From the IMG/VR virus record IMGVR_UViG_3300023235_000989, positions 1 to 59,346 of that record: a DNA stretch of 59,346 nt. One strand, given 5' to 3'. The DNA is from a virus. Numbering within the stretch: position 1 is the first letter of the stretch; the number at the start of each line of letters is the position of its first letter. The notes beneath the pieces were generated by a model. That model saw only the letters and a list, made by a program, of their open reading frames with translations, made no database searches and had not been told where the DNA came from. Below are positions 19,952 through 58,536 of this stretch, in pieces. The translations under genes were made by a program, and so were the position numbers.

Positions 19952-19959
19952 GTAGTATT

Positions 19960-24454: not shown

Positions 24455-24765
24455 AGGTGACTCCATCTATATCCATACTTGATGTTTTTAATACAAGATA
24501 CAGACACGCCAAACGTAGTTGCTATATTCTTAACAGTCGTATTCTTAAGCATTAGCTTGATATGCAATACATCTTGTTCTATCAACTTAGATCTACCATT
24601 TCTAGAACCTAGATTGGGCTCTTTTGAATTGCTTTGTCTAAGTCGTTCAATCTCATTACTAACCAAAATATGTGACCAACTTTTACCAGACATAATCGCC
24701 TTAATTTGAGTTCGTGATAGGTTATATTTCTGACTTGATAGACGCCATTCTTCATAGTAAATCAT
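24451..24765 (-). CDS. tandem HTH protein, probably decayed homing-endonuclease tail
   Basis: 104 residues with two copies of the same C-terminal module: an HTH ending NLSRTQIKAIMSGKSWSHI (residues about 16-33) and another ending GVSVSCIKNIKYGYRWSHL at the C-terminus. No GIY-YIG, HNH or other catalytic residues are present. It resembles the DNA-binding tails of the homing enzymes in this window and overlaps both neighbours. It might be a relic or a domesticated DNA-binding protein. Confidence 0.55.
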   Translation of the reverse strand: MIYYEEWRLSSQKYNLSRTQIKAIMSGKSWSHILVSNEIERLRQSNSKEPNLGSRNGRSKLIEQDVLHIKLMLKNTTVKNIATTFGVSVSCIKNIKYGYRWSHL

Positions 24766-25648: not shown

Positions 25649-25681
25649 GACACCCACCTACAGTTCCGTTCCTTGTCACAC

Positions 25682-28392: not shown

Positions 28393-28408
28393 GTTAAAAA
28401 CCAGGGCT

Positions 28409-29224
28409 TTATGCAAATTCTTTAAGGAAATCTTTGTAGCGTTTGTAGTAGTCAGGAGACTTAAACTTCGTTTCCGTCTCTAATCCGACAGCAGATGGAC
28501 CACCGGGGTAGAACGACTGCATGGCACGCATAGCTTCGAAGTTACTACGCTCTTTGTCGGACTGCTCTAGTGAGTCCTTTCTCTGATTGTAGATACTGAA
28601 GCACGATGGGATGTCTACGCCTTTAGCACCTAGAGACATAAAGTAGAGGACGAGCCAGTAGTCGAAAGCCGACCGATACTCGTTGCCAGCCTTAATCATC
28701 AGATCCCAATCAGCCACGTCGCGCAGTTTATTATCCCAGTGAACATGCACGCCACAGCGGAAGAACTGTTGTAGGTCGAGTTCTGTATACTTCGGCGGGA
28801 TGCCCTTAGCCGTGACGATGTCGTCGACCCGCGTTTCATAACCGCCGTAGTAGAAGTGGAGCTTCTCCCAACGTAGCATGGCAGCCTGTCGATTAGCCTT
28901 GTCAGCCGCGCTTAGAACCTGCACGCCGCGCCAGGGGTAGGACCTGTCATCGCTGTTGGTGTTGCACACTATGCCACCCTTCGCTACATGCCAGCCCTCT
29001 AGCCATGACACGCCATACGGTGTTCGCTTAGTCTGCTCTAAGAGTTTGATTCTCGGGTCACGCTTCTGCCACTTCTTGATGATCTCTACGCTTCTGTCGG
29101 TTGACTCACTATCTACAATGATATGTTCGTAGTTAGGGTTACTCTGCTGGCTAAGGTTCTCGATGAGTCCATCTAGAAACTCTTCCGAGTTAAAACAGCT
29201 AGTAATAAAGGATATGTCAACCAT
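28409..29224 (-). CDS. glycosyltransferase family 2
   Basis: About 271 residues starting VDISFITSCFNSEEFLDGLIENL, then HIIVDSESTDRSVEIIKKWQKRDPRIKLLEQ and GGIVCNTNSDDRSYPWRG, giving the GT2 nucleotide loop and a DD metal site (NSDD). The later DWDLMIKAGNEYRSAFDYWLVLYF is the acceptor-side helix with the usual E/D-W. The start at 29224 lies one base after the upstream stop; 24 upstream codons in frame have no family sequence. Confidence 0.8.
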   Translation of the reverse strand: MVDISFITSCFNSEEFLDGLIENLSQQSNPNYEHIIVDSESTDRSVEIIKKWQKRDPRIKLLEQTKRTPYGVSWLEGWHVAKGGIVCNTNSDDRSYPWRGVQVLSAADKANRQAAMLRWEKLHFYYGGYETRVDDIVTAKGIPPKYTELDLQQFFRCGVHVHWDNKLRDVADWDLMIKAGNEYRSAFDYWLVLYFMSLGAKGVDIPSCFSIYNQRKDSLEQSDKERSNFEAMRAMQSFYPGGPSAVGLETETKFKSPDYYKRYKDFLKEFA

Positions 29225-29225
29225 C

Positions 29226-29474
29226 TTAAGTCTTGATGTCAAAGACATACACCACACCATGGATGTCATGTGGGTGACGCTTAACATCAGACACACGAGG
29301 ATCGTTACCGACCTTGACGATCGTCTCTAGAAAGCGAGTCTTCTTCACTTCCGTCTTTAGATCATCGGGCGATGGCCAGACTGAAAGCCTCGCCTCGCCA
29401 GCGGTAATCGCACTACTAACCCAAGGATGCTTACGCGGCTTCTCTGGAAGCTTTGCTAGTGGTTGCTTCGTCAT
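29226..29474 (-). CDS. hypothetical small protein, 82 aa
   Basis: A basic, Pro-rich N-terminus (LAKLPEKPRKHPW) followed by charged helix and a strand end (HGVVYVFDIKT). No recognised family. It shares its start A with the stop of the glycosyltransferase gene upstream (TAATG-type junction) and is followed immediately by a GT2 gene. Confidence 0.45.
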   Translation of the reverse strand: MTKQPLAKLPEKPRKHPWVSSAITAGEARLSVWPSPDDLKTEVKKTRFLETIVKVGNDPRVSDVKRHPHDIHGVVYVFDIKT

Positions 29475-30517
29475 TACGCATCCACCAAGTTAAAGAGCTT
29501 GTCGTATCCTTGCTTGCCCTCTTCGGCAAAGATCCAAATCAAGGGGACATGAGTTAGGCAATATGGTGCCGCCAACTCGTGATTCATAATCTCTTCCTGT
29601 GCGTCTAGGAATGCATCCTTACGTTGCACAATCGGATGATTAGCCATGGCTGGAGGATGAATACCATCAAAGAACAGGACCGTATCCATATCTTCTGACT
29701 GAGCTAGATACTCATCAGTCTGACCGCCACGAGCATAGGCTCCTACGTCACCGTGTTTGTCCTTGCCAAGCTCCTCATCATAGAACGCCTTCTTCTCCGC
29801 GATCTCCTTATCATTATCCTTGCAGTAAGAGTAATGGTAAACTGCGAACTCAGGAAGAACGAAACGACGACTCAGATAACGAGGGTCGAAGTATGTGCAA
29901 ATCCCATCCTTGTCACGAGCAACGGGATGATTCTGATAGTTCAGTCCAGGCTGAAAGCGAATGAACCTCTGGTGTTGCTGACCCCAATCCCCACTAGGCT
30001 TACGCACATGATAGGCATCGCGCCAAAAGTGATAGAAGCCAGCGGGAACAAACTCTGTAGCCCACGGCTCCAGGCTGATGGCTTCACGAAGCTTGTCGGC
30101 AACGTCCGGCATGATAAACTCGTCAGCGTCAGTGATCAGCATCCAATCGCCCTGCTGCATGTATTGGAAGAAGCTGTTCTTTAGTTCTTCTAGGTCAGCC
30201 CATGGACGATCAATCTGCACAAAGATAATCTTCTTGTCTGGGTCCTTGTTTGCCTTCACGTCCTTGATGATCTCGACCGTGCGATCTAGCGAGTGACCAT
30301 CGGGAGTAGCCTGACCGGCAGCCGCCTTACTTTGGACTGCGCCTTCGATAACGATGATGCGATCTACCTTATCGTAGAGCTGAAGCATACACGCCTCGAC
30401 GAGCTTCTCTTCATTACAGACTTGAATGCACTGCACAATCTGAGGCTTTGCGTCAAGCGCATCAACAGTGACAGAGATCTGATTGGGAAGATTGTTATTG
30501 AATGGGTTATTAGACAT
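29474..30517 (-). CDS. glycosyltransferase-like (GT2/GT17-like), 347 aa
   Basis: Residues about 25-130 read QIVQCIQVCNEEKLVEACMLQLYDKVDRIIVIEGA, ...HSLDRTVEIIKD, and GDWMLITDADEFIMPDVADKL, where DADEF is the DxD metal site. The rest includes HFWRDAYHVRK and QHQRFIRFQPGLNYQNHP. This is a GT-A catalytic domain without membrane anchor. The ATG at 30517 follows AAGGAG with seven-base spacing. It overlaps the upstream GT4 gene by eight bases. Confidence 0.7.
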   Translation of the reverse strand: MSNNPFNNNLPNQISVTVDALDAKPQIVQCIQVCNEEKLVEACMLQLYDKVDRIIVIEGAVQSKAAAGQATPDGHSLDRTVEIIKDVKANKDPDKKIIFVQIDRPWADLEELKNSFFQYMQQGDWMLITDADEFIMPDVADKLREAISLEPWATEFVPAGFYHFWRDAYHVRKPSGDWGQQHQRFIRFQPGLNYQNHPVARDKDGICTYFDPRYLSRRFVLPEFAVYHYSYCKDNDKEIAEKKAFYDEELGKDKHGDVGAYARGGQTDEYLAQSEDMDTVLFFDGIHPPAMANHPIVQRKDAFLDAQEEIMNHELAAPYCLTHVPLIWIFAEEGKQGYDKLFNLVDA

Positions 30518-31706
30518 TGCTAGTCTCCTTAGTCTTGCTAGCTGCAATCTCTTCAATCACAGCAAGCATTTTTGGTCCAACTACCGAGTGGTCGAACTCT
30601 GTCATGTTTGGAGCTTCAAGTGTTTGAGCCTCCTTGGCGATCTTCATTTGAACCATCATCGAAGAGACAGATGGTTCTGCGATCATGTCAAAGCTCGTGT
30701 AAAGCTCTGGGTCAGCATGTTGTTGGCTGACTAGGGGCTCCATCGAGAAGGCTATAGGATACACGTTGTCTCGTGTGCGCTCCACCTTGTATGTTGAGTG
30801 TCCATCGGGATATTCTGCTGTTTGAGCAAACTCACCCATACCACCCCAGAGGGTAGTGATCAACTTATTGCCATGGGTTAGTGCGTCGAATGCTGGAATA
30901 CACCAACCCTCACCACGCGAACTACACACGTAAGCGTCACCAGTCTTGTGGATCTTTCGGATCTGATGATCAGTTAGCGTCTTTGTTACCAGCATCACTG
31001 GAGGAAAACCATCTGCGGGAAGTCGCATACCCTGCTTTACATTATCAATGTAAGCCTTTAGCTTCTGCTGTTCCTGCGAGCGTCCCTGCATGTTCACATA
31101 GGTCTTTAATAGTAGCACGACCTCATCTTGTTTGCCATGGAATGCACCAAAATAGGCACGTAGCAAACTATCGATACCCTTCTTCTGGGAGAATTGACTG
31201 ATATTGTAGAATACAAATCGGTCCTTCAAGAAGTTAGGATCACTAGGTGACACGATTTCCTCAACGTCATCTAGAGAATAAGAGGGGATGTCGAAGGTGT
31301 GCGGCACCTTGTGGATTGGCACAGTGACACCGGAGTCCTTAAACGCCTTGACACTAGCATCGCAGAAGGTCATCACTGAGTCGAACTGGTTAAGCTTGTC
31401 CGCCCAGTAGCTAGGGATCCTTGTAGTCTCCCAAGCGACGATAGCGATGTTGACCTTGCCGGATGCTGGACGACATTCATTGGGTGTTGTATGCTGAATA
31501 ACAACATCAACATCATTTAAGCTTCCCTTGAATAGCTCTCGCTCTCGCTCTGTTGGTTTATATGAAGAGCCCGGATCTGCTTGATCGTATCTAACCGGAC
31601 GGGTTACGATATTAGCACCAGCCTCATCCAACGCCCTGACATATGCACGACTAGCTGTTGCGTATCCGCTAAAATCTCGCAGGGGTGCGATATAAAGAAT
31701 TTTCAT
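30510..31706 (-). CDS. glycosyltransferase family 4 (GT-B)
   Basis: 398 residues: KILYIAPLRDFSGYATASRAYVRALDEAGA (N-terminal GT-B start), VNIAIVAWETTRIPSYWADKLNQFD, RFVFYNISQFSQKKGIDSLLRAYFGAF, and AYVCSSRGEGWCIPAFDALTHGNKLITT, with E-G-W...D replacing the usual E-x7-E. Retaining GT4 enzymes build many surface glycans. The ATG overlaps the TGA of the homing-endonuclease scar upstream (ATGA), whose TGGAGTCA gives the ribosome-binding site. Confidence 0.8.
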   Translation of the reverse strand: MKILYIAPLRDFSGYATASRAYVRALDEAGANIVTRPVRYDQADPGSSYKPTERERELFKGSLNDVDVVIQHTTPNECRPASGKVNIAIVAWETTRIPSYWADKLNQFDSVMTFCDASVKAFKDSGVTVPIHKVPHTFDIPSYSLDDVEEIVSPSDPNFLKDRFVFYNISQFSQKKGIDSLLRAYFGAFHGKQDEVVLLLKTYVNMQGRSQEQQKLKAYIDNVKQGMRLPADGFPPVMLVTKTLTDHQIRKIHKTGDAYVCSSRGEGWCIPAFDALTHGNKLITTLWGGMGEFAQTAEYPDGHSTYKVERTRDNVYPIAFSMEPLVSQQHADPELYTSFDMIAEPSVSSMMVQMKIAKEAQTLEAPNMTEFDHSVVGPKMLAVIEEIAASKTKETSNV

Positions 31707-31790
31707 ACATGACTCCAGATTTTTCTATTATTGATAGCGCTTACTGTAGTTTGCGCTATGTCGAATTTGATATACACCATTCTTCATCAT
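31703..31790 (-). pseudogene. scar of a homing endonuclease (GIY-YIG start fused to HTH tail)
   Basis: Two reading frames meet here. From 31790 the frame reads MMKNGVYQI, the start of the GIY-YIG gene family seen at 19208 (MKTGVYQI). The other frame ends the element with FDIAQTTVSAINNRKIWSHV, the same HTH tail as FDVSQSSISDIKTGRTWRH. The whole catalytic middle is gone, with the junction near the shared TATATCAAATT. The tail codons TGGAGTCA remain as the ribosome-binding site of the gene at 31706. A 25-codon peptide (31703-31780) may still be made. Confidence 0.75.
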
Positions 31791-33664
31791 AGAATCATTG
31801 CCTCGAACGAATCGGTGTCTTCACTGCCCACTTGCGCGGACGGTTCATTAGTCTTCCCTGCACGCATAAGCTCAACTTGATTCTGAGCCTCAGCCTGCTG
31901 ACGGAAGAAGTTAGCTATCTCGCCACGGGTCTTTTCGGCGGGGACTCCTCGCGATACTTCGACAGATAGCTTCTGCATCCAGTTACGTCGTCCGTCCTCA
32001 TCAATGTCATGCTCGGTTGCATAACCTAGCACCTTTGTGTAGCACCAGACAACGAACGCTTCGTCAGTTGCATCTGCTGGAGGTTGCTGCGCATCGATCT
32101 CAACTAGAGACACAGGCTTATCCCAGGTCTTGTCACGATCCAATGGCGTGATATGGTCTAGGATGAACTCCCATTCCTTATAGTTCTTATCCCAGTCATA
32201 ATGCTTCTCAGCACACTCGCGGGCTTCGACACTCATTGTCTTAAGTCGCTTATGATCACTTAGCATGTCACCCATCTTCTGAGCGCAGTCAGTCATAGAC
32301 GTGGCAGCACGCCAGCAAGTAGTTTCGGGCTCTTCGTAAAGCTGACTGACCTTCATTACCTCGCCACCCTTGTTGACATCGTAAGTCTTCTTGTCGATGT
32401 GGTCATAGTCAGGGACCTTGCCCTTCTCGGAGATGGCAGCGTAGTCAGTCACCAGCACTGGGATACCGCACGCCTTTCCTTCTTGGACGGGCATGCCGCA
32501 GCCTTCCGCAATACTCATCTGCACCATAATGTCAGCCATACCGTAGACTTCGGATAGCTGCTCACGAGTAAGTCCAGCTCCAGTAGTTGGAGTTCTAGCT
32601 GATTGCTGACCGCACTTAGGACACATAATTGTGTGACTTTGGCGTAGGTTAATTGAAGGAGCAACAAACACATCACCACATGTTGTGTTATGACACATGA
32701 ATGTCGAACATACTTCTCGAATGATTCCCTTGCGAGTTACCGGGATACCGTGAGTGCCAGTTTGGATGCGGGCAATAGCACGAGGGAAGTCGATTGACAT
32801 AGCGTTGTCTGGCCATGCAGTATGCATAAGCAAAATTGACTTCTGCACGGTCTCATCATCCGGGAACGCCTTCTTCATAAGCGCGAACGACTGGATGACT
32901 TCCGAGATACGCTTTCGAGCTTGGTTTCGCTGCACCAGCAAGATGATTGGCACGTCAGGCTTGAGACCCCACTTTTGCCTCAGCTCCGCCTTAGCCTTAT
33001 CGTCACGCGGATGGAACGTCTTCAGGTCAACACCTGGACGCATTGGCACAGGGTGTAGCTTGCCGGGCATCTTATCAATACCAATGAACCCAGGCTTGCC
33101 CGGTGGGTCAGAGCGTAACTCTAGACGTGGCGAAGACTTGCGAAGCGAGTCAATACCAAAGTCGGAGTATGCCATGACATAGGTAGCACCGTTATAGGTG
33201 TTGATCCATTCTTCCTTCTGAGGGATCGAGTCAACAGTCGGCATTACCAACCAGTTGAAGTATTTGCGGAATGGGCTTCGCTCTTGGAATGCGACCATCC
33301 ACCAGTCACGAATATCAATTACGATATCAGGACGAAAATCAGAAAGAACATGCTCGAACTTCCATCGACCAAACTGATTAGTGTTCTGTCCTGGCTGAGC
33401 CGGATCCTGCTGTTGGAATACCTGCTCCTCTTCAGGAGTCATTGGTTGGTTGCCGTAGAACTTCCACCGGCCTCGGATAGATCCCTTGATACGGGGATCA
33501 TCATCCCTGGCATAGGAACCGAACTCCGCAATCTCATACTTACCAGTCGCAGCAAGGCGAGGCAGTAGTTGATCGTAGATATTAGAAAATCCCGTGTTTA
33601 GAAAAGACGCTTCTCCGACAAAGAGAATGCGCTTCTTGTAGTCTTCTTTACTCTCGACACCCAT
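31787..33664 (-). CDS. glycosyltransferase family 4 with an inserted zinc ribbon
   Basis: 625 residues. The N-terminal half begins ILFVGEASFLNTGFSNIYDQLLPRLAATG, with HPVPMRPGVDLKTFHP and VPIILLVQRNQARKRISEVIQSF. The C-terminal half has VYGMADIMVQMSIAEGCGMPVQEGKACGIPVL, the retaining GT4 acid motif (AEGCGMPVQE). Between them sits a four-Cys cluster, CHNTTC (C324, C329) and CPKC (C348, C351), an unusual insertion. A C-terminal extension of about 120 residues follows. It is the first gene of the glycan island and overlaps the homing scar at its stop. Confidence 0.8.
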   Translation of the reverse strand: MGVESKEDYKKRILFVGEASFLNTGFSNIYDQLLPRLAATGKYEIAEFGSYARDDDPRIKGSIRGRWKFYGNQPMTPEEEQVFQQQDPAQPGQNTNQFGRWKFEHVLSDFRPDIVIDIRDWWMVAFQERSPFRKYFNWLVMPTVDSIPQKEEWINTYNGATYVMAYSDFGIDSLRKSSPRLELRSDPPGKPGFIGIDKMPGKLHPVPMRPGVDLKTFHPRDDKAKAELRQKWGLKPDVPIILLVQRNQARKRISEVIQSFALMKKAFPDDETVQKSILLMHTAWPDNAMSIDFPRAIARIQTGTHGIPVTRKGIIREVCSTFMCHNTTCGDVFVAPSINLRQSHTIMCPKCGQQSARTPTTGAGLTREQLSEVYGMADIMVQMSIAEGCGMPVQEGKACGIPVLVTDYAAISEKGKVPDYDHIDKKTYDVNKGGEVMKVSQLYEEPETTCWRAATSMTDCAQKMGDMLSDHKRLKTMSVEARECAEKHYDWDKNYKEWEFILDHITPLDRDKTWDKPVSLVEIDAQQPPADATDEAFVVWCYTKVLGYATEHDIDEDGRRNWMQKLSVEVSRGVPAEKTRGEIANFFRQQAEAQNQVELMRAGKTNEPSAQVGSEDTDSFEAMIL

Positions 33665-46587: not shown

Positions 46588-49500
46588 TTAGCTAAATCTC
46601 AGGAAGTTCTGTCTATTCGAAACAAAGAAGCTCCCAACCCTTGTAGAGCCATCGCCTGGAGTGGTGGGGTTTGTGCTTAAGACCTCGGCGGTCATTAAGA
46701 TCCCCTTGTCACCTACGATTATGAACTCCGGGTTTGGGAACGGCGTCACGTCGCCCTCTGGAATAGCGCTCTGATCTAGATTACCGTTATCCGTAAGACC
46801 CTGCACTGTCACTATAGCACCAGATGTCCCCACATTAGTTATAGCCGTAACCTGCACTGGGGTTGAAGAGTTACCACCAGGGTTTAGGAATACGCCAGGA
46901 GTCTCAAGCGTTGCACCTGGGCGCTCTAGGACTCTGGGGGTTCCATTACTTGCTTGCGAGGCAAGGGTGGTGAGGTCTCCAAGATTAACCGCGCCGTTGA
47001 GAAGCGGAACGTTAACGAGACGACGAACAGGATCGGTGTCCAGTAGAGCCACATCAAACGTGTTAGAAGACGTTCCTACGCCACTGACAAACACAACCGT
47101 GCCATTAGAGAATGGACGCCCACCAGTCCAGTAACGTTGAATTTCGCGCCCCTGCCCCGGAAGCCTAAGCTCGTTTACGTGATAGAGCGCTTCGTCACCG
47201 ACATTTAAGAATCCGTCTACACAGACGGAGCCACCACGACCAGCACCAGTCTCAAAGTTTGGATCAGAGCTGCCGGGAGACTTCGCAGGAACGGTATAGT
47301 CTTGTGCGGTTATACCACGATACCTTTCTTGTGTTCCCGCGTCTGGAGTGTTGGAGAATGTTAGCGCAAAGTTGACTTCATTGATTGTTGCCTTGCGAAT
47401 GGTCTCACCCTTACCTCGTGGCGCACCAATGATGTTAGGCGGCTGGGGGCGCGCACGGCTACGCGTGCCTGGGGCTAAGGGGCTGGCTATGTCGAAGTTG
47501 ATTGGTGTGATGATGCCATTTAAGATCGAGCGCTGACGCTCACCAAGTGGTGCATCCTTGCCAAATTCAGCAAAGAAACTAGCAATACGATAGTTGCTTC
47601 TAATACCAGCAGTTCCAAGAGTGAAGTTTACCTCGGTGATACCATGGTTGCGAACACCAATAATCCCACTTGCGTTAGGTGAAGAGTTGGAAAATGAGTC
47701 AAAGGAAATCTTAGGAAGTCCAACTAGTTCAATTGCAGAGAACTGAGAGTTAGCCGCTGGAGCAATCAGTCCCTGAAGACGACGGAACGCACGATCTTCC
47801 ATAAGCTGGATAGACGTTGTGCGACCTTGTGGTGGGAAGTTCCATGGGCCAAACTGATCATCAATGACGATCGACTCTGAATCACATGGTGTAGCTAGTT
47901 CCCCACTTACCCACGCCTGTGGAAACGACATGCCGTATCTCTCAGTAAACTCTACTGGGATCGCGACACCATCCAACCTGATGTATGGATCGATAAGGAT
48001 ACCCGGATCAACGAAATCTACGATACCAGAACCAGATGACTCTAGCGCGTCTTCAGTTAGCGTTACTAGGTTGCGGAACGTAAAGTTCTCACTCGATCCA
48101 GTGCCTGCAATAATAGGGATCTCAGCTAGGAGTGTGCCTTCTGGGTATTCTTCAAACGCCCTTAGTGGGTCACGTGGATCAATAGTTAGCTGGCCTACTT
48201 CCGTCAAGGTGATAGGAATATAGTGCTCTCCGGTGCGAGTCCGACGACCTGAATCAGCAGTCGTGTTGCCAATATTATAGTCCTCGGTCCATTGACCGAA
48301 TCCCGCTGGTGCATCCTCGCCTTCTGGACCATAAACCGTTCCGGAAGGAAGAACACAGTATGCAGAAATCTTATCGTCGGTTCCTTTGAATGGCGAAAGT
48401 GGACTTAGGTCACGGTTGATCTCATAGTTGTTTACGAAGAGACCACTAGAACCACCTGTTGAGATGCCTTGTCCCTCCATCTGGTTCTCTACATTACCCC
48501 ATGCTGCATTGGCTAATTTGAATGCACCCGAAGCTGCATTGACTAGAATACCAGAAGCGATATAGGCACGACCAAAGAAGCGTGTCGCATGGTCACGGAC
48601 ACGGTTGTAGAAATTAAGGACCCAGTTCTGATTAGCGTCGCGGCGGTTATTGATAAGACGGATCTGACCAGACTCGTTACCGCCAAGTGCAGCAATCGGC
48701 TGCGCTGGATCATATCGACTTTCGAAGTCAGGATGTTGCGCGGCAATACTACCGGCATCAATTGGCTGACCAAAACCCGGTGACGTAAGACTAATGTCCG
48801 CTGCGTTAGTCTGATACTTTTTGAAGTATGTCCAATGCTCGATCCCCTTTAGGGCAGCCTGTAGTTCTAGATCGCTTGGCTTGTAGCCACGCAGAATACC
48901 AACAGCATCTGTAAACTGAACTGAAAAATTAGGCCAAGCTGGCTGAAAAACAACTCCAGACTCAGGTGCTGGCACTCCATCAATTCCACCTAGTAGCGGA
49001 GAGTTGAGCCAACCTTCTTGGTGAGCACCAAGTAGACGAACGCGACGTGGTTGGGTAACTAAGTCATCACCATACTGCAAGCTAACCGTTTGCTCTAGAC
49101 CACTTACGGACCCTAAACCTGCTACGATGTTGAGTAGCTCATCCTCACGTAGGTCGAATGCAACCTTTCTATTGACTAGACGAACCTTCTGCTCGGACAT
49201 ACTCCAATACCAGTCATACGCAGTGGCTTCTAGAATACGAGTGAGGGCTTCTGTTAGTGGCGTTCCATCAAAGTTAAACCTAACGGCTGATGCGTCACCG
49301 CCCAAGTTAGCCTCAAGGTCTTCTTTAGATGGGATTTTATCAAGGTCGAAAAGAATCTCGCCCTCGTCGATTGCAAGCTGAATCGCATCCAAGATCTGAG
49401 GGTATGTGCAGCCTTGCTCAAGGACAAGGCGATACTCTCTGAATAGCGGCTCTGAGACATTCCCGTCAATATTAGTGAACCCCTTCGTGATGCGAACTCC

Positions 49501-49950
49501 ACGAGCTACAGAGACCGAGCCCGACCCAGGGTTGTTTCCTAGGTCTTCTGTAATTAGCTTAATGGCATCTAGACAACGACGGTTGTCACGGATGTTTACT
49601 TGGATGATTGAGCCCTGCGAGTTAGCGCTATACTCAGAGTGAGTGATCTCACCGCTAGCTAGGAACTCTCCAACCGTAAAGCCGATGATGCTGCCGGGTG
49701 CGGGAGCTTGACCACTAGCGCCATGGAACGCCTTCGGGTCGTCACGGGTTGGCACCCACGTGGTGTTGAACGAGTGAGGAGTCGTGTTGAATCCAAACGT
49801 TGCATTGATCTGAATCAACGCCGCTTCAAGATCACGTCCTGGCGCTCCTGCCGGGATCTGACCAGATGGAAACATTATGATAGGCTGACAGTCACCTAGA
49901 CCGAGCCCCTCAACGTTTATCTGTTGGCCTGTGATATTGAAGTTTGCCAT
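46588..49950 (-). CDS. large virion structural protein (probable tail/baseplate component), 1120 aa
   Basis: The N-terminus (NFNITGQQINVEGLGLGD) and a helical domain with CTYPQILDAIQLAIDEGEILFDLD are followed by a very long beta-rich region with many Gly, Asn, Ser and Thr. Ser-Gly pairs are frequent, as in the other virion genes. ALTRILEATAYDWYWSMSEQKVRLVNR resembles the domain-fold of tail hub proteins. No enzyme motif is seen. Tail hub/spike is likely because it sits with fibre-like proteins in one transcript. Confidence 0.6.
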   Translation of the reverse strand: MANFNITGQQINVEGLGLGDCQPIIMFPSGQIPAGAPGRDLEAALIQINATFGFNTTPHSFNTTWVPTRDDPKAFHGASGQAPAPGSIIGFTVGEFLASGEITHSEYSANSQGSIIQVNIRDNRRCLDAIKLITEDLGNNPGSGSVSVARGVRITKGFTNIDGNVSEPLFREYRLVLEQGCTYPQILDAIQLAIDEGEILFDLDKIPSKEDLEANLGGDASAVRFNFDGTPLTEALTRILEATAYDWYWSMSEQKVRLVNRKVAFDLREDELLNIVAGLGSVSGLEQTVSLQYGDDLVTQPRRVRLLGAHQEGWLNSPLLGGIDGVPAPESGVVFQPAWPNFSVQFTDAVGILRGYKPSDLELQAALKGIEHWTYFKKYQTNAADISLTSPGFGQPIDAGSIAAQHPDFESRYDPAQPIAALGGNESGQIRLINNRRDANQNWVLNFYNRVRDHATRFFGRAYIASGILVNAASGAFKLANAAWGNVENQMEGQGISTGGSSGLFVNNYEINRDLSPLSPFKGTDDKISAYCVLPSGTVYGPEGEDAPAGFGQWTEDYNIGNTTADSGRRTRTGEHYIPITLTEVGQLTIDPRDPLRAFEEYPEGTLLAEIPIIAGTGSSENFTFRNLVTLTEDALESSGSGIVDFVDPGILIDPYIRLDGVAIPVEFTERYGMSFPQAWVSGELATPCDSESIVIDDQFGPWNFPPQGRTTSIQLMEDRAFRRLQGLIAPAANSQFSAIELVGLPKISFDSFSNSSPNASGIIGVRNHGITEVNFTLGTAGIRSNYRIASFFAEFGKDAPLGERQRSILNGIITPINFDIASPLAPGTRSRARPQPPNIIGAPRGKGETIRKATINEVNFALTFSNTPDAGTQERYRGITAQDYTVPAKSPGSSDPNFETGAGRGGSVCVDGFLNVGDEALYHVNELRLPGQGREIQRYWTGGRPFSNGTVVFVSGVGTSSNTFDVALLDTDPVRRLVNVPLLNGAVNLGDLTTLASQASNGTPRVLERPGATLETPGVFLNPGGNSSTPVQVTAITNVGTSGAIVTVQGLTDNGNLDQSAIPEGDVTPFPNPEFIIVGDKGILMTAEVLSTNPTTPGDGSTRVGSFFVSNRQNFLRFS

Positions 49951-49951
49951 G

Positions 49952-50431
49952 TTAGCTGATTAGTCCTAGCCTTCCAGAGTGCTTTGCGTTCTTACTAAAG
50001 TCACGGTTTTCGGTAGTCACCCTTCCATGGTGCGAATCAACCCAATGAATCGTAAGGGTCTCGCCGTGTAGTTCACCAAACCCCTGAGCCTCATCCTGAT
50101 AGTTGGCGAAGTGTGGGTTCTGCGACATCATTCTGCGGACGCGCTTGCTATAGAAGTAGCCATCCGCCTGAGATGTCAAGTTGATTTGGGCGACTGGGTT
50201 AAGATCCTGTCTAGCAAACGACATGCCAATTATTTTGCAGTCATTGTCTACACAGTATCGTTTTAGACGAAGCCATGGGTTTGGCTCCTCTAGCGAGGGG
50301 TCCTCAAGCGTTTGATAAACTTCAATTCCACAACTAAGAAAAACAACCCAAAATCTCCATAACGGACACTCTTCTATTCTAGTTGCTAAATTATACGGCG
50401 TCTCTTTTATCACATCTCGATAGTCTTTCAT
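49952..50431 (-). CDS. hypothetical virion-cluster protein, 159 aa
   Basis: Contains YNLATRIEECPLWRFWVVFLSCGIEVYQTL and a C-terminal beta-rich region (HGETLTIHWVDSHHGRVTTEN). It lies one base after the 1120-residue gene end and starts inside the decayed homing endonuclease region. The N-terminal hydrophobic stretch might be buried. The function is unknown; position suggests a minor tail protein. Confidence 0.5.
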   Translation of the reverse strand: MKDYRDVIKETPYNLATRIEECPLWRFWVVFLSCGIEVYQTLEDPSLEEPNPWLRLKRYCVDNDCKIIGMSFARQDLNPVAQINLTSQADGYFYSKRVRRMMSQNPHFANYQDEAQGFGELHGETLTIHWVDSHHGRVTTENRDFSKNAKHSGRLGLIS

Positions 50432-50818
50432 ATGTGTCCCATCCTTTTATTGTTATACCACTCCAACTTTTCCCATACTTGATTCGTTTAATGACATGAA
50501 TACTAACACCGAATATTGATGCAATCTCATGTTCGTTCATTCCACCAACAAGCATATCCTTTATTTTACTAACCCTCGACTCATCTAACAGTGCGCGTGG
50601 GTTTTTAGACCCAGTATTATTAGAACTCATTTTGGCTCTAGTTTCGAGAGACGCCCTGATACCAAGTTTTGCACGACGAATCCTATCCTTTGTCAAATCG
50701 GATGTTTTGACTCCAAGTCTACTACCAGCAATCTTATATTAAATCCCTTACCAGCAGCACTGCCAATATAACACTTACCTGTTTTTAAGTGTTGGATCTG
50801 ATAGACCCCATTTTGCAT
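50391..50818 (-). pseudogene. broken GIY-YIG homing endonuclease
   Basis: From the ATG at 50818 the frame reads NGVYQIQHLKTGKCYIGSAAGKGFN, an intact GIY-YIG start, then drifts and stops at 50693. The other frame carries SRLGVKTSDLTKDRIRRAKLG (NUMOD3-like), GSKNPRALLDESRVSKIKDML and a C-terminal HTH (IASIFGVSIHVIKRIKYGKSWSG). The catalytic centre between FN and SRLG is deleted and the frame is shifted. Note the TAATG junction with the upstream virion gene. Confidence 0.78.
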
Positions 50819-51489
50819 TAAAGGAACTCTATGACCATAAAAAGTCCAAAGTCACTCCGCTGCCCCGCCGCTTCCGGTGATGCCGAAAGTCCGATGAAGA
50901 AGTCATGAACAAGATTGCTTACATTACGATCTTGTAATAGAAGACGATTATCAATCGCGCCAGCGCCAGCAGTCTGAGTCCAGGTAGCGTCCGCTCCTGG
51001 TTCATATCCCTGTATCTTGAGACCGGTCACGACAGAGCTTACGTCATCAACACCACTAGCTGCGTTTAGGGCTACGGTGTAGAGGATGGCATTCTGAGTT
51101 CTAACCTCGGTAGATCCAGATGCTTCAAATCTAGCTAGGATAGTGCCAGACTCTGGGGTCACATTGATCAGAGCAACCTCACCTAGACCACTAACATTGA
51201 CAGTGCTAGTTGAAACATACTTGTGGTTGATAAGCTGACCACTAGCTGGGACGCCATATGGCTCTTGCCCTAAATTGGTCCCGCTTGTGTTGGTGATAAA
51301 GGTTAAGTCCTGATAGCGGCTTACAATAACCGCAAACGGGACACCTTCCGGTCCTCCCGCTCCAAAGAATCCGACGTGATTAGCGCCACTGGTGTTACCC
51401 GGTGGATCCAACGACTCAATCGGCACCAAACTCGTAAAGTTTGAGCTTGCTGGCGATCCGGATGGAGCGTAAAAAGTAAGAGTATTCAT
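50818..51489 (-). CDS. virion-associated protein, Ser-Gly-rich, 223 aa
   Basis: Beta-rich sequence with repeated ASG, TSG and SGL pairs (PASGQL, NVSGLG, AASGVDD), and a C-terminal VHDFFIGLSASPEAAGQRSDFGLFMVIEFL. No signal peptide or catalytic motif. It follows an AGGAG and a palindrome (51503-51516). Probably a minor tail or head-decoration protein by location and composition; the family is unknown. Confidence 0.5.
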   Translation of the reverse strand: MNTLTFYAPSGSPASSNFTSLVPIESLDPPGNTSGANHVGFFGAGGPEGVPFAVIVSRYQDLTFITNTSGTNLGQEPYGVPASGQLINHKYVSTSTVNVSGLGEVALINVTPESGTILARFEASGSTEVRTQNAILYTVALNAASGVDDVSSVVTGLKIQGYEPGADATWTQTAGAGAIDNRLLLQDRNVSNLVHDFFIGLSASPEAAGQRSDFGLFMVIEFL

Positions 51490-51502
51490 TGTGGCCTCTC
51501 CT

Positions 51503-51516
51503 GGTGACTAGTCACC
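51503..51516. repeat. 14-bp perfect palindrome GGTGACTAGTCACC
   Basis: Perfect inverted repeat just upstream of the ribosome-binding site of the 223-residue gene. Centred on ACTAGT, like the palindrome at 59308. As RNA it could form a short hairpin at the 5' end of the message if transcription starts near the TATAAC-like element at 51521. Confidence 0.45.
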
Positions 51517-51527
51517 TATGTTATACA

Positions 51528-53723
51528 CTAAATGTTTAGGACGGCTGCGCGCCCACTGAGAATTACGTCGGTGGCAGCTACCTGGTTAATATGAACGATC
51601 TGGAAAGATGAGTTCATCTTGGCGAAGTAAGATGGTCCAGCAAATCGTGTGGTAAAATACAAGTAATGCAAGCTGGTCACTGGATCCCATACTGCGGGAC
51701 CATACGTATCAACTGTGGACGGCGTCATCGGCACGTCTGGAGCAAAACTGATGGTCGCCGAACCCGCTGGTGTAATCGCCATCGAGTTTGGAATTGTGAA
51801 TTGGTTGTTCGTCGTTACGGATAATCTGATCTTCCAGCTAGGGTAGAAACCAACAATATAGGTTGTTGACGAGTGTGACGTAGAAGGTGTTAGAGTTGAA
51901 GTTCTCGCGACCGTGCTAATGGGCGCGAACTTATCATTCTTGGGTAGGATCGGAATCTGTAATGCACCAACATCACTCCATTGAATATACGTCGAGCCGT
52001 TAATATGCACAAAGCCATGACCGGGCTTGCGATTGAAAAAGAACGACATGATGTTTCCGATATCGTAAGTGTCAGAAAAGAACTCGATGTTCTGTGAGTA
52101 AAAGAGTGGTGACTCGGGAGGGTCTAGTTCGATCCATTGGAATTCGCCGTTGGCTGGGTTTGTTCCCTCTCTGTAGACATGTCTCTCGAAATCAATAGTC
52201 TCTGTTCTCTTGTCTCCACCACCAGAACGATCCTGACCTGGACATACCATACGATCTAGGGCTCCCCACTCGTTATATGCCTTGAACCATACAACTCCGT
52301 CCCCCGCCGCGTTGATATCTCCAATAGTCCATGTCGTGCCACCATACAAATTAGGCTGATATGAAGTCACAAATTCTTGCGACCAATTGGCTGGTGATAA
52401 AGTATTGTCTAGAGTTGCCCAGTCGACTATCGACAAACCATTTGATGTATTAGACGAGCTTACACCACCAAACGCATAGATGGTGTTTCCATTAACATAC
52501 TTCAGTGTTGATGAAACGTTCCCACCTCGCGGGCTGGTCTCTGATCCAACGAAGTGACCGAACACCTTTTTACCATTGATGAGACTTCTACCTACCGCTA
52601 GGTTGTTAGCATTGAACTCACCTAGACCATAAAGAAGCCTGCTTGTGTTATGAACTCCAGGATGAGCAATTCCATTCTTGTTGATGCCACTAGTTGCTGA
52701 GTAGTTAGCAGGATAGTTTTGAATGACCAAGCCACTACCGCCATCATCAGAAACATCTAGAAGATAAACTGTATCGTCCGTCAAAGGGCCAGGAACGTTA
52801 TAGATCGCCTGCCTACCAGATGCGTTGATACATCCACTATTCTGAGTCTCGTAGTATCTGTTAAGTTCCTCACCCGCTGGGAATTGAGCCCATTCAACGT
52901 TCTCTCTAAATGTTCCTTGCGGTGCCGCAAACTGTCCGGAACCTGTGAGGAGCTTAATGCTCGTCCCTGCCACAAGTCTATCACCAGTGATGATCATACC
53001 GCCAGATGTAGCTGCATCAAAACCAAGCTTGCCAAAGTTCTCTTTGTCTAGGTCACTGAATGTTGGTAGATTACCATCCACAAGAACCGCTGGGAATACT
53101 GGCTCTAGTGGTATGTCACTAGGTCCGACCCTTGGTTCCTTTGGACGGGTGAATGGCTGCCACATCACTTCATCAAGGTCAATGTCTTGGAACTGTTGGG
53201 CACCTAGCTCAACCGTGTCGCCAGATGTGACCAAGCTTGATGGAGCAACTGGCACCGTATTCACTGGCGCGGGATGCACATACTCTAGATCGCTTGTTCC
53301 TGACGCACTTGTGTTGGGAATGTCGTAGATCGCACGATTACGCTGCATGTGTGCAATGAAGAACTCATCTGCCGAGTATTGAGAGTCCCCGGCGTGAAGG
53401 GCTGTAACTTCTTCTAGCAGGGTCCTCATATCGAGGATGTAGTCTGCGTAATGTGGAGTCGCAGCCTCATAGCCACTAGCATTTAAGGTCGGCTCAATAG
53501 ACTGAGAAAGTCCTGCATCCCTATTGATGTAGAGCTTGATCGGAGTATTTACTGGATGGCTACTAGCTGTCGTAAATAGACGCTTATCAAGCAGTAGACC
53601 GAAAGCCGGGATAGAGAAGTAGCGCCCCTCATACGCTACTAGATCTTGGAGACCAAGCCTGAATGGTTCGCGTGAGTAAGGATATGGTCGATGTAGAAAT
53701 TCAAATCCGCTTGGGCACGTCAT
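51528..53723 (-). CDS. long virion protein, 731 aa (tail fibre/spike-like)
   Basis: Begins PSGFEFLHRPYPYSREPFRLGLQDLVAYEGRYFSIPAFGLLLDK and has a long Ser/Gly/Thr/Asn-rich body with DADEFFIAHMQRNRAIYDIP and QDIDLDEVMWQPFTRPKEPRVGP. No catalytic residues or collagen repeats are seen. Its composition matches the LamG-like protein next to it. Likely part of tail fibre or adhesin. It follows, in the same transcript, a small zinc-knuckle gene. Confidence 0.55.
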   Translation of the reverse strand: MTCPSGFEFLHRPYPYSREPFRLGLQDLVAYEGRYFSIPAFGLLLDKRLFTTASSHPVNTPIKLYINRDAGLSQSIEPTLNASGYEAATPHYADYILDMRTLLEEVTALHAGDSQYSADEFFIAHMQRNRAIYDIPNTSASGTSDLEYVHPAPVNTVPVAPSSLVTSGDTVELGAQQFQDIDLDEVMWQPFTRPKEPRVGPSDIPLEPVFPAVLVDGNLPTFSDLDKENFGKLGFDAATSGGMIITGDRLVAGTSIKLLTGSGQFAAPQGTFRENVEWAQFPAGEELNRYYETQNSGCINASGRQAIYNVPGPLTDDTVYLLDVSDDGGSGLVIQNYPANYSATSGINKNGIAHPGVHNTSRLLYGLGEFNANNLAVGRSLINGKKVFGHFVGSETSPRGGNVSSTLKYVNGNTIYAFGGVSSSNTSNGLSIVDWATLDNTLSPANWSQEFVTSYQPNLYGGTTWTIGDINAAGDGVVWFKAYNEWGALDRMVCPGQDRSGGGDKRTETIDFERHVYREGTNPANGEFQWIELDPPESPLFYSQNIEFFSDTYDIGNIMSFFFNRKPGHGFVHINGSTYIQWSDVGALQIPILPKNDKFAPISTVARTSTLTPSTSHSSTTYIVGFYPSWKIRLSVTTNNQFTIPNSMAITPAGSATISFAPDVPMTPSTVDTYGPAVWDPVTSLHYLYFTTRFAGPSYFAKMNSSFQIVHINQVAATDVILSGRAAVLNI

Positions 53724-53726
53724 GAT

Positions 53727-53948
53727 TTATGATAGAAATTCAATGATCTTTTCATGACAGCAAGAACAGGATGGGCAATCTGTATCGCTATAGTGAGATA
53801 AAGTTTCGTCTTTTAGATTCTGCCTAGCCAATCCTCTTCGTTTTAAAATACAGAATCTACATGTCATGTATTTGACACTATAGAAATCGGAATACGGTCT
53901 TGTCTCGTTACAACTACGACATTCCTTTTCTCCCATCCTGCCATCCAT
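53727..53948 (-). CDS. small zinc-ribbon protein (HNH-associated type), 73 aa
   Basis: A classical four-cysteine ribbon: KECRSCNETRPYSDFYSVKYMTCRFCILKRRG (CxxC, Asn-Glu-Thr-Arg-Pro, FY, CxxC), the same pattern that precedes many phage recombination endonuclease VII/HNH genes, followed by more cysteines (CPSCSCC). It has no nuclease core of its own. It lies between two virion genes without gaps. It may be a remnant or a small DNA-binding protein. Confidence 0.55.
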   Translation of the reverse strand: MDGRMGEKECRSCNETRPYSDFYSVKYMTCRFCILKRRGLARQNLKDETLSHYSDTDCPSCSCCHEKIIEFLS

Positions 53949-53949
53949 A

Positions 53950-56900
53950 TTATTCCACCCCAATTGCCGTAGACACAATTCCCCATGAACCGCTTACAGC
54001 CCAAACTGCATTATAATGCCCCGGCATGGTATAATCATGTGTCTTAACAGAATTGGCGAACTGCGTTCCGCTAGGTGTCTCCATGCTATTCATCAAGCTT
54101 TCTTGCTGATCGCAGAAGTTCGTATATTCTAATATACCACTTGTCGTTTCTAGGTCGGCGTGATGAGTGAAGAATACTCGATGGATAGCACTGCCACTTA
54201 GTGGTGTCCCAGAAATTGAGATAGACGGCAAGCTAGCAAGATATGTTCCAGATTCAGAACCACTTGGAACAAGCAAGAATTCTCTCACGCAACTAGAACG
54301 ATACCCATAGCTATCCAATACTTCAATTGCTACGTTGTAGAGTCCCGGAGTTTCAAAAGTCCTTGATGCTTGGTATAGACCACTGAATGACACTCCATCA
54401 ACTAGGGTTCCATCTTCACCCTTCTTGAAGTCGGCGAACGTAAACCTCACCTTGCTGACATCCTTCTGATCCTGGGCGATGCCGCTTCCCTCTACCGTCA
54501 AAGTATAAGGAGTTCCAGACGCAATCAAGCCGACCTCTGGCATTTCCAAAGTGCAGACCGGTGGTTGGGTTATTCTGATTACACCGAGCCTAGAGTCAAA
54601 GCCATAGATCTCAGTCTTTTCTACACCAAGACGTGCGTCAAAATCCTTTGAGGTTACAATCTCAAACGTGAGGGTTACATCAAACTCATCCAGTGTCTGA
54701 CATGCACCAAAGGTATAGGATCCGAGTAGTCCGCTCACGATACCAAGACCGTGCATGAAGTGACCAAATATACCGCTTTGAGAAGCTATACCATGGGTGA
54801 ATCCACCAGTCAAGCCACTAGCGAAAGCGCGACCATGAATAAAGCCACCATACTCATTGACGATGCCGGACACACCACTGATACTACCACCGAATAGATC
54901 AATGTCTTGACCTAGACCATGCATGTATGCGCCGATCATACCCGACACTATTTCCTGGTTGATACCACTCATCCACATACCATACGTGGAGTTGATAGTT
55001 CCAGCGTTACTCGTGAAATTGTAGGAATTTGCTGCTAGTCCAGAAATCTCAGGTAGGGTCAATACCCTACTGAATAGCATTGTGTCATCTAGAACACCAG
55101 AGAATGCGCTACCGCCATTGACGGCATTACCCTCTTGGTCTCCACGACCACCAAGCGAGAGACCAGAGTTGTTCGCTACAATCTCCCCAAGTGGGGTGAA
55201 TGAGGTGCCAGCATAGCGACCATTGACGATCACACCAAACTCGTTGTTGTCTTGATCGTAAGTAACAGCTAGATGATTCCATTCTTGTGGAGCTAGATCA
55301 CCATTCTGTCCAGACACACTGCTATTAGCCGCAAGTGCTTGTGCGGTAAGTGAACTTTGAGGTGTGAATACCTTGATGCCGGTTGGTGATGCGGATGGAC
55401 CACTTCCCTTATTCATGATTACATGAAGATCGGTAGCACTGGGGATGGGTGGCTTGAGCCAAGTCAACATGGTCCACGATTGGGTTCCAGAGCCAAGATC
55501 AAGACGGCGAGATCCTGGGTTTGATGGAATTGTATCTAGGTATTCCAATCGACGGACTACGACACCACTAGAGTGGACAGACCCTTCCACACCGACCTTA
55601 TGCCCGTCAGTATTGATTGGGAATAGGGTATTGTTTTCCCTACCGAAGTCTAGAACCTTATTTCCAGCCTTGTCAAACTTCCAGTGGCTGATATTAGCTG
55701 GGTCCGTAACCGACACATCCCCACTGACCAAGACGATATCATCGATAGCTCCACGCTTGGTGCGAATCCAACTAGCGTCATCTAGATGACCAAGATGCAT
55801 GAACGCCAGTCCCATCCTGGTGGTCTGTGGGAATCCATAATCTAGATTTGGAGCATTCAGGATACTGAATCCACTAGCGCCCACTGCCTGTGGGATCTGA
55901 TCAGATAGTCCGAATGTTTCATCAATAGCGTATCTTACCTCTACCGTCTCACTCAGTTCAGCTTGCACCACCTGAGCCCGTAAGGCAAAACCTGATGAGA
56001 ACACATTGCAACCAATGAAGAATGGGCTGTTGAATGGCACCTCGTTTTCGGAGGTGTATTCAACTAGTGATGATGCGCTATCTCTAAACTTGATGTGTGG
56101 TTTGTTGTCTTGAATACCAAGGAACCACGACTGCTCTGTGGATACCTGTGACCATGCTCCCATGATCATATGATCACCGTCTAGACCACTACTACCATGT
56201 CCCTCGGAGCCTAAATCGCCAGAAGGTAGGTATACCCAAGCGCCAGCGGAGAATCCGCTCGTAGCAAACAGATTCTGTGCGGAGGCATCTAGGTTATCCC
56301 CATGAAGAACTCTCTCAAGCGACATCATAGATCCGCTAAGTGAGACATTCAATCCGCTACTCACTGACGAAAGTTCTGTGTTGAGTCTACCACCAAGCGT
56401 AAAGAGACCACTAGTGTTGGTCAGGTGATGTGAATACCAACTATGATCATCTAGCCTAATGCCAGAAACAAATGTTGGGTCATAGTTTACGAATTCGTCC
56501 AAAGGCCAGTATCCCACCAACGCCTTTTGCGGAGTGCTAAGAACTGGTCCTGGTGCCGGGGTCGCAATATTGGCTAGACCGAATCCAGACATCTCTGGGA
56601 TAGACAAGATCCTATTGTAAACAGCAAAGCTGTCGAATTCCACCGACCGCACATTCTGCGGGGCAAATCCAAACCAACCAGCCTCTCCGTCTAGTCCGTC
56701 TGATGCAAATCCAGATGCTGATGAGATTTGCTGGGTCATCTGAAAGACCGTCTTCGCATCTCTGACCATATACATCTGGCCACATTTGACATCGAATACA
56801 CCAGCCCATAGATGCCAGCCGTCATCACCTGTATCAAATTCCGGATCCGAAACAGATGACGAATTACTTAAGCCAAGTTGACCGCCATATGAATTTGTCG

Positions 56901-58536
56901 CATCGCTGTTTCGTGATGTAAATCTAACGCTAGGTAGTGTTCCTATGCCTGTTCCACTAGCTAGTGCATTGACGGATAACGCATTTGTATTACCACCGAC
57001 ACCACCATTTTGAGACTCGGCAAAGAAATTATTGTGACGACCATCACGACCGAACCATCCAAATCCACCACCGACAAGATTCGTGCCAGTGGGAACTGAC
57101 CTCATCCATCCAATAACAGTCATACCCTCATCTACGGTATGTCCACTTGGGAATAGTAGGGAGAGACCACTGTTCGCTGGAATCAGCGGATATGCCTTTG
57201 ACGCCCGTAGGGCTTCACCACCAGTAGCGCCTAGGATGCTTTGGTCACCCAGAACCCTAATCGCACGACCGCCCCCTATGCCATCGACAAACGACATCTG
57301 AGATGGAGTTCCACTAAGAGATAGGTTTAGTCTTGGGTCAGTTAAGGTATCTGGTGCTGTGTTATCACCATTGTCACTATCAAATCCCCAGTATGCTACT
57401 AGACCGCTTGACTGAGGAAACTCTGGAACGAATCCACTGCTTTCCGGATTGGACGTTTCGATATACCGCATGCCGCTAAGTGCATAATGCGCGATTTGAT
57501 CCTGATCGAGATTACCATCTGCTACATATACGACTTCGTCAATCTCTCCACCGTTAGGTAGGTGTCTATTAGTTGTCGTGCCATCTCTAACTCCTTCCGA
57601 GCTAGACCCAAACGTCATCGGGTTGCCACCAATTCCTGGCCCGGCGTAGTTTGCAACGATGTTTGGCCCTCTGAACATTATGGAGCTAGATCCGATGATA
57701 CCGCTCTCGGCAGTGCCGACCCAAATCGTCATCTGCCCACTGCCATTAGCAGTAAAGCTACGGTTCTCTTCTACGTCTTCTCTTCTAACCTGAGCGGCGA
57801 AAAAGAATGGTTCATATGGATTACCCGGAAAGTTAGGGACAGCCTCGTTTCTAACCGCAGCATCAACAAACCATCCTGGGTCGTTGGTAACAGTAACACC
57901 ATGAACAATTGAACCGTTGAGTGGACTGATAAGGTTGGCTTCCGATGCCATAATGAGAGAAATAGCCATTGAGTCGCCGGGTGGGGAATGACTAGCAATG
58001 TCCTGCCATGTCACACGCCACTGCACCATGCTTCCCAATCCACCCTCTTGAGTGGATCGACTAACGATGTTTTGTGCTGTGCTAACTCCTGGCGACTTCC
58101 TTCCTGGGCGACACCAGCCAATGACGGTGAACCCAGAATACATTGCAACTCCGTGACTAAGAGTTCCATGTGTCTCATTAGAAGCGGCGTAATTTTCGAT
58201 TACGGTATCTGAAGGAACATAAATCGTATCAGCGTTAGCTCCATCATCCCAAAGAAATCTGATGCCACTTCCGTCGAGTGCCCATGGGGCTAATCCCGAC
58301 GTTGGTTGTATTAACGCTTCAGGAGTATCAGAAATGAAGTATGGCTTAAGGTGATGCTTCTGAGGACCAGAATCAACTAGAAGACCAGAGAGATAGTTAG
58401 TCGAGGTCTGCTCTTCCGGAGTCTGGAAATTATTCTTAGGCGTATCGTCGCCAAAGCGCCACCAGCCTTGAATCAGGGGGTTGTCACTTCTCCAATAATC
58501 GTAGTTCGATCCGTTAGGTTGCCACTCGCGTGTCAT
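53950..58536 (-). CDS. giant lectin-like virion protein with about four LamG domains, 1528 aa
   Basis: LamG (concanavalin A-like) units are recognised by their opening and closing strands: unit 1 ends GGEIDEVVYVADGNLDQDQI (about residues 20-375); unit 2 opens SSGLVAYWGFDSDNGDN and ends SFAVYNRILSIPEM (about 390-660); unit 3 opens VGYWPLDEF (about 675-960); unit 4 opens ISHWKFDKAGN and ends LDDTMLFSRVLTLPEI (about 960-1215). A 14-residue Gly/His repeat follows (see findings), then two Ig/PKD-like domains with CTLEMPEVGLIASGTPYTL and FETPGLYNVAIEVLDSYGY. Probable receptor-binding tail fibre that binds sugars. Confidence 0.72.
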   Translation of the reverse strand: MTREWQPNGSNYDYWRSDNPLIQGWWRFGDDTPKNNFQTPEEQTSTNYLSGLLVDSGPQKHHLKPYFISDTPEALIQPTSGLAPWALDGSGIRFLWDDGANADTIYVPSDTVIENYAASNETHGTLSHGVAMYSGFTVIGWCRPGRKSPGVSTAQNIVSRSTQEGGLGSMVQWRVTWQDIASHSPPGDSMAISLIMASEANLISPLNGSIVHGVTVTNDPGWFVDAAVRNEAVPNFPGNPYEPFFFAAQVRREDVEENRSFTANGSGQMTIWVGTAESGIIGSSSIMFRGPNIVANYAGPGIGGNPMTFGSSSEGVRDGTTTNRHLPNGGEIDEVVYVADGNLDQDQIAHYALSGMRYIETSNPESSGFVPEFPQSSGLVAYWGFDSDNGDNTAPDTLTDPRLNLSLSGTPSQMSFVDGIGGGRAIRVLGDQSILGATGGEALRASKAYPLIPANSGLSLLFPSGHTVDEGMTVIGWMRSVPTGTNLVGGGFGWFGRDGRHNNFFAESQNGGVGGNTNALSVNALASGTGIGTLPSVRFTSRNSDATNSYGGQLGLSNSSSVSDPEFDTGDDGWHLWAGVFDVKCGQMYMVRDAKTVFQMTQQISSASGFASDGLDGEAGWFGFAPQNVRSVEFDSFAVYNRILSIPEMSGFGLANIATPAPGPVLSTPQKALVGYWPLDEFVNYDPTFVSGIRLDDHSWYSHHLTNTSGLFTLGGRLNTELSSVSSGLNVSLSGSMMSLERVLHGDNLDASAQNLFATSGFSAGAWVYLPSGDLGSEGHGSSGLDGDHMIMGAWSQVSTEQSWFLGIQDNKPHIKFRDSASSLVEYTSENEVPFNSPFFIGCNVFSSGFALRAQVVQAELSETVEVRYAIDETFGLSDQIPQAVGASGFSILNAPNLDYGFPQTTRMGLAFMHLGHLDDASWIRTKRGAIDDIVLVSGDVSVTDPANISHWKFDKAGNKVLDFGRENNTLFPINTDGHKVGVEGSVHSSGVVVRRLEYLDTIPSNPGSRRLDLGSGTQSWTMLTWLKPPIPSATDLHVIMNKGSGPSASPTGIKVFTPQSSLTAQALAANSSVSGQNGDLAPQEWNHLAVTYDQDNNEFGVIVNGRYAGTSFTPLGEIVANNSGLSLGGRGDQEGNAVNGGSAFSGVLDDTMLFSRVLTLPEISGLAANSYNFTSNAGTINSTYGMWMSGINQEIVSGMIGAYMHGLGQDIDLFGGSISGVSGIVNEYGGFIHGRAFASGLTGGFTHGIASQSGIFGHFMHGLGIVSGLLGSYTFGACQTLDEFDVTLTFEIVTSKDFDARLGVEKTEIYGFDSRLGVIRITQPPVCTLEMPEVGLIASGTPYTLTVEGSGIAQDQKDVSKVRFTFADFKKGEDGTLVDGVSFSGLYQASRTFETPGLYNVAIEVLDSYGYRSSCVREFLLVPSGSESGTYLASLPSISISGTPLSGSAIHRVFFTHHADLETTSGILEYTNFCDQQESLMNSMETPSGTQFANSVKTHDYTMPGHYNAVWAVSGSWGIVSTAIGVE

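Follow-up and report, generated by a model that had tools for sequence, protein, structure and literature searches.

Four putative tail proteins encoded in a 59,346-nucleotide stretch of viral DNA (IMG/VR record IMGVR_UViG_3300023235_000989, positions 1 to 59,346; this whole stretch is called the window) contain the pair Ser-Gly (SG) more often than their composition predicts. In the tail proteins of related phages the pair belongs to a four-residue motif, [PAV]SG[IVL], that is, Pro, Ala or Val, then Ser-Gly, then Ile, Val or Leu. The motif is in excess, is restricted to tail-region proteins and is conserved as a unit. We consider it an evenly balanced proposition that the Ser of this motif is a covalent acceptor site, most likely for O-glycosylation by a phage glycosyltransferase. 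From the sequences we infer that the motif is modified, that the group added is a sugar, and that a conserved glycosyltransferase of 625 amino acid residues begins the modification.

A preliminary description of the window had reported strong SG enrichment across four consecutive virion proteins of 1120, 223, 731 and 1528 residues. All four open reading frames (ORFs) were found on the minus strand with the lengths given (Table 1). They are not strictly consecutive, because an ORF of 159 residues separates the first from the second; the family of this ORF also lacks enrichment (SG 30 vs 27 expected in 38 members). We assign the four proteins putatively to the virion or tail by gene order downstream of the tape-measure gene in a relative, not by similarity. 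None of the four had a match in a PHROG search, and only the 1528-residue protein had a Pfam hit above cut-off.

When dipeptide statistics were run against composition, the four proteins together held 88 SG vs 38.6 expected, and the highest count in 4,000 shuffles was 59. Composition is thus insufficient to account for the excess, and the enrichment claimed earlier stands. Each protein was also significant on its own in 1,000 shuffles (P = 0.004 for the 1120-residue protein, <0.001 for the 223-residue protein, 0.007 for the 731-residue protein and <0.001 for the 1528-residue protein). Shuffles confined to 25-residue blocks gave a mean of 39.9 and a maximum of 59 (2,000 shuffles); since they agree with the full shuffles, local composition does not explain the excess either. 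The tripeptides named in the preliminary description are all above expectation (ASG 16 vs 2.8, TSG 10 vs 2.8, ESG 5 vs 1.8, SGL 16 vs 2.9), and its minimum of eight SG in the 223-residue protein is the exact count. SG is the sole extreme among the 400 dipeptides (z 8.0, followed by LD at 3.8). The reversed pair GS is near expectation (41 vs 38), the turn pairs NG (20 vs 23.4) and DG (22 vs 22.7) are not enriched, and TG is depleted to about half of expectation (15 vs 29.2).

The other ORFs examined in the window show no such excess. We analysed 58 of the 76 ORFs of at least 100 residues, those left out being the plus-strand ORFs and three small minus-strand ones, and the 54 minus-strand ORFs other than the four tail genes held 61 SG vs 64.9 expected. 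A DNA-level cause was considered and rejected. SG is written with AGN serine codons 49 times and with TCN codons 39 times in the four proteins, and T before GG is favoured in other window genes too (0.45 vs 0.32 before other codons). The use of both serine codon boxes and the presence of the T-before-GG context in other genes indicate that selection acts on the protein. A TRF search for tandem repeats found none.

The same excess was seen in related phages. Successive searches with the 1120-residue protein found homologues at 13 and then at 52 viral loci, and all 52 homologues are above SG expectation (12-23 vs 7.4-9.9) at identities of 41-100%. Twelve families were aligned across the 52 loci, excluding exact duplicates and matches shorter than half of the query, and seven tail families were compared with five control families. 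The SG ratios of the tail families were 2.08, 2.87, 2.06, 2.28, 3.14, 2.77 and 3.05, and every one of the 246 members exceeded expectation; four of the controls gave 0.92 (helicase), 0.74 (polymerase), 0.67 (primase) and 0.73 (exonuclease). Replication families of the relatives thus lie mostly below 1, in keeping with the earlier statement that replication proteins are not enriched. Three of the tail families (175, 196 and 495 residues) are encoded outside the window, their seeds having been taken from record G002; those of 175 and 196 residues may be related to each other, as both match the same proteins of record G010. In G002 a tail-spike-like protein of 755 residues at a separate locus is also enriched (19 vs 8.7), and no SG excess was found in its 2216-residue tape measure (12 vs 12.6), terminase or putative portal. 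The tape measure, an interior protein, is without enrichment in the relatives as well (38 vs 59 expected). The SG excess is therefore a property of a phage lineage, one of large uncultured aquatic tailed phages. A random contig with an SG-rich fragment (L076) was dismissed, its 94-kb record lacking the trait in the big proteins.

To define the motif we used 145 tail proteins under 70% identity, with 2,369 SG. They contain 455 copies of [PAV]SG[IVL] vs 40 expected. Pro, Ala or Val precedes SG 2.2-fold more often than expected, and Trp, His, Lys, Asp, Arg or Tyr at 0.20-fold of expectation (Asp at 0.22-fold); Ile, Val or Leu follows it 2.3-fold more often. No flank rules of this strength were found for TG, NG, DG, AG, GG or GS in the same proteins. 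The motif occurs 10 times in the four window proteins vs 1.5 expected. Random viral ORFs, from which all ORFs of locus L087 were omitted for their simple repeats, gave 57 vs 44 (1.3-fold); there was no excess in 106 random viral ORFs of tail-like composition (24 vs 20.4) or in 12 tail proteins of phages lambda, T4 and Staley (3 vs 2.5). In aligned columns the preceding residue is bulky or charged in 2.3% of cases with SG and in 12.3% where SG is missing, and the following residue is Ile, Val or Leu in 55% and 35%, respectively. The four positions of the motif behave as one unit.

Conservation, counted among members under 90% identity, was examined for the pair itself. In the seven tail families Ser of SG persists in 0.66 of the pairwise comparisons and other Ser in 0.30, and the difference holds in each family separately (0.54-0.81 vs 0.19-0.44). 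The values for eight control families, made up of non-virion or unassigned genes, are 0.23 for Ser of SG and 0.34 for other Ser; in the replication proteins of these phages neither the motif excess nor the Ser-Gly conservation was seen. At 75 consensus SG sites the frequency is 0.85 for Ser and 0.91 for Gly, while the flanks (-6 to -1 and +2 to +7) lie at 0.52-0.63, close to the column mean (0.58). Where Ser is present, Gly accompanies it in 98% of cases; where Ser is missing, Gly is found in 46%. For the other XG classes listed, Gly is present in 53-98% once the first residue is lost, so that the drop for SG is the largest among these. Ser and Gly tend to be lost jointly. Thr substitutes for Ser in 3% of cases among close relatives.

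A linked Ser and Gly, loose flanks with steric rules, repetition over exposed proteins and absence from interior and replication proteins are what an acceptor site would be expected to show. If the Ser is such a site, a phage-encoded cytoplasmic glycosyltransferase would most likely modify it before or during tail assembly. The 625-residue enzyme would start the glycan, and enzymes of the sugar cluster (Table 1) would later extend it, giving the virion a surface suited to adsorption or evasion. A broader version, to which we give a little under even confidence, is that the lineage may possess its own modification code, with an SG sequon in at least seven tail families, a phage glycosyltransferase as reader and about a hundred modified Ser per protein set.

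The distribution of glycosyltransferases bears on this proposal. The preliminary description counted ten in the window; we found nine ORFs with some Pfam glycosyltransferase similarity, five of which pass the curated cut-off. The gene for the 625-residue enzyme is present in all 21 SG-rich records above 100 kb (G001-G003, G010 and 17 others), and that for the adjoining 398-residue enzyme in 20 of them, being missing from G010. Relatives of the 625-residue enzyme are encoded by 351 stretches in all, many more records than were compared here. In G004, a 66-kb fragment of a distant relative, these two are the only glycosyltransferases of the window that are retained, and their order is as in the window, with the DNA polymerase followed by the pair. 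The 625-residue glycosyltransferase is our candidate enzyme at SG, an unproven link to which these occurrences lend partial support. Two other candidates failed. A GT9-like heptosyltransferase (17197-18084) is present in G001-G003, and in G010 as a domain, and looked promising in eight genomes, but it is absent from all 17 further SG-rich records. The sigma-like and HD-domain genes, seemingly specific to the SG clades, are not plausible modifiers.

Several findings weigh against a modified Ser or against the proposed enzyme. The same glycosyltransferase pair occurs in G011, G012 and G013, records that were selected for having it. SG is weak in G012 and G013 (59 vs 41.7 and 79 vs 56.1 in the best 20-kb pieces examined, about 1.4-fold), with one and two motif-rich proteins, and one piece of G011 has raised values of both SG and TG. 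Presence of the enzyme is thus not sufficient, although the 223-residue homologues of G012 and G013 retain six or seven SG. G010, otherwise strongly SG-rich, has an unenriched homologue of the 1120-residue protein (7 vs 6.3), and the RecA-like control family has a ratio of 1.55. For the tape measure, which is probably helical, the lack of SG could be a matter of fold and not of burial. Because the sequences compared are related, their counts are not independent events. At several sites Gly is universal and Ser is replaced by Glu, Ala or Asp, and some of these glycines are thus simply structural.

The most serious alternative, which we find rather doubtful and still well worth weighing, is a recurrent structural element: the tail beta-proteins would reuse Ser-Gly as a tight turn or bulge leading from a small residue into a beta strand, with nothing attached. 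All eight SG of the 223-residue protein lie in loops between strands in its AlphaFold model, which is of low confidence (mean pLDDT 55) and gave no match below E 0.001 in fold searches; the model of the 1120-residue protein (pLDDT 31) was unusable. No PDB relatives of the 1120-residue family or of the 1528-residue protein were found at the thresholds used. An aliphatic residue after Gly would suit the start of a strand, and Gly stays in 164 of 356 cases in which Ser is lost. In the 1528-residue protein SG occurs at residues 650 and 1165, in LSIPEMSGFG and LTLPEISGLA, the latter coinciding with the end of the Laminin_G_3 match. The end of this domain presumably often holds a short helix, and if it is helical here, the motif is not tied to a single type of local structure. 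A turn preference, which the preliminary description had thought the simpler explanation, predicts enrichment of NG and DG, tolerance of Thr, Asn or Asp and conserved surroundings. None of these was seen at the predicted level: NG and DG are unenriched, TG is depleted, Thr rarely replaces Ser and the flanks are at background. The rule also recurs in seven tail families, most of them without detected mutual similarity, and is not in excess in random tail-like ORFs or in the lambda, T4 and Staley tails. With Ser kept nearly as well as Gly, neighbours that are not kept, and flank rules shared by none of the other dipeptides tested in the same proteins, modification fits better than a turn. Of the earlier suggestion of O-glycosylation, the modification site is therefore in agreement with motif, conservation and flanks, and the enzyme is linked in part, since relatives with weak SG also carry it.

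Two further explanations were considered. A modification by a host enzyme, or by a non-sugar group such as phosphate or acyl, would agree with the observation that glycosyltransferase presence does not track SG strength in the wider clade; we judge it unlikely, as the lineage has a glycosyltransferase pair of its own, kept in constant order next to the DNA polymerase, and a large sugar-nucleotide cluster is found in the window and its closest relatives. Short linear motifs with hydrophobic flanks often bind partners, and the motif might be where a partner protein or a processing protease docks. This appears very improbable, because up to 50 copies per protein would shred the protein if cleaved, few partners need so many sites, and no candidate partner was seen.

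Table 1. Features of the window bearing on the SG motif.
Feature	Position	Strand	SG count or basis
Putative tail protein, 1120 residues	46588..49950	minus	18 SG vs 8.7 expected
ORF of 159 residues between the 1120- and 223-residue genes	49952..50431	minus	1 SG vs 0.6 expected, no enrichment
Putative tail protein, 223 residues	50818..51489	minus	8 SG vs 2.6 expected
Putative tail protein, 731 residues	51528..53723	minus	12 SG vs 5.8 expected
Putative tail protein, 1528 residues, Laminin_G_3 at residues 1018-1165	53950..58536	minus	50 SG vs 21.3 expected
Family-4-type glycosyltransferase, 625 residues, Cys4 insert and DUF4214-like C-terminus, candidate modifying enzyme	31787..33664	minus	
Glycosyltransferase, 398 residues, adjoining the 625-residue enzyme, candidate second enzyme	30510..31706	minus	
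Sugar-nucleotide and glycosyltransferase cluster	13674..29296	minus	Pfam similarity

The sugar cluster contains a GDP-mannose dehydratase, an epimerase, two DegT aminotransferases, a formyltransferase, a methyltransferase and several glycosyltransferases. The dehydratase, DegT aminotransferases and formyltransferase (13674-22413) presumably point to an N-formyl-perosamine-like sugar. Homing-endonuclease-like genes lie in the cluster region at 12188-12952 and 19208-19951 (MTES_1575/DUF559 with NUMOD3, and GIY-YIG with NUMOD3). A Sigma-70-like gene lies at 33686-34324, near the glycosyltransferases and a DNA polymerase III-type polymerase. Elsewhere in the lineage the 625-residue type of glycosyltransferase is fused with GT9 and GT2 domains in G010, and a 1215-residue phage protein of L236 (9890-13534) joins GT4-type, zinc-ribbon-like, DUF4214, GT9 and GT2 domains. 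The 625-residue glycosyltransferase genes of L162 (7250-10270) and L170 (3768-6806) have in-frame inserts of about 380 residues at two different sites. The inserts match Hint, intein-splicing and LAGLIDADG domains and are probable inteins; in G018, too, the glycosyltransferase is split at one of the two sites. The sole genome match was a 45% relative of the 1120-residue protein on a 158-kb contig (L329) binned in a Hydrogenophaga metagenome-assembled genome; the contig may point to the host or may be a phage binned together with it.

Sequence is usually a poor guide to O-glycosylation in bacteria and phages. If the motif is an acceptor site, it would offer a sequon that can be read directly, would list sites in hundreds of proteins and would narrow the candidate enzymes to a few; it would also suggest that heavy modification of the tail is an ancient feature which this aquatic phage lineage has maintained, with consequences for adsorption and for virion recognition. 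If the motif is structural, tail proteins have in it an element of unusual specificity that lacks an explanation. A literature search for Ser-Gly modification of phage tails gave no match, subscription journals being mostly outside its coverage. In eukaryotic proteoglycan xylosylation, which belongs to another domain of life and uses other enzymes, Ser-Gly is the core acceptor and acidic neighbours are favoured. The present motif differs, Asp being depleted in the position before SG.

Mycobacteriophage virions are known to carry glycans on structural proteins; as the work of Freeman et al. 2023 is described in PMC12619734, these lie at the C-termini of capsid and tail-tube subunits. The glycans described there are thus C-terminal, whereas the motif reported here is spread through many tail proteins. 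The BAHT heptosyltransferases TibC and AAH glycosylate TibA and AIDA-I, using Ser and not Thr, according to PMC4358343; of the mapped sites given there, Ser-313 is followed by Gly (NSGG) and Ser-322 by Ala. That system differs in its substrates, which are secreted autotransporters, and in its enzyme, a heptosyltransferase. We take the BAHT heptosyltransferases to be of the GT9 type, and the GT9-like gene of the window is missing from the 17 other large SG-rich records tested. The likeness lies in the substrates: many Ser of repetitive, beta-rich surface proteins bear sugar in the system described, and comparable sites are predicted for the tail proteins of the present lineage.

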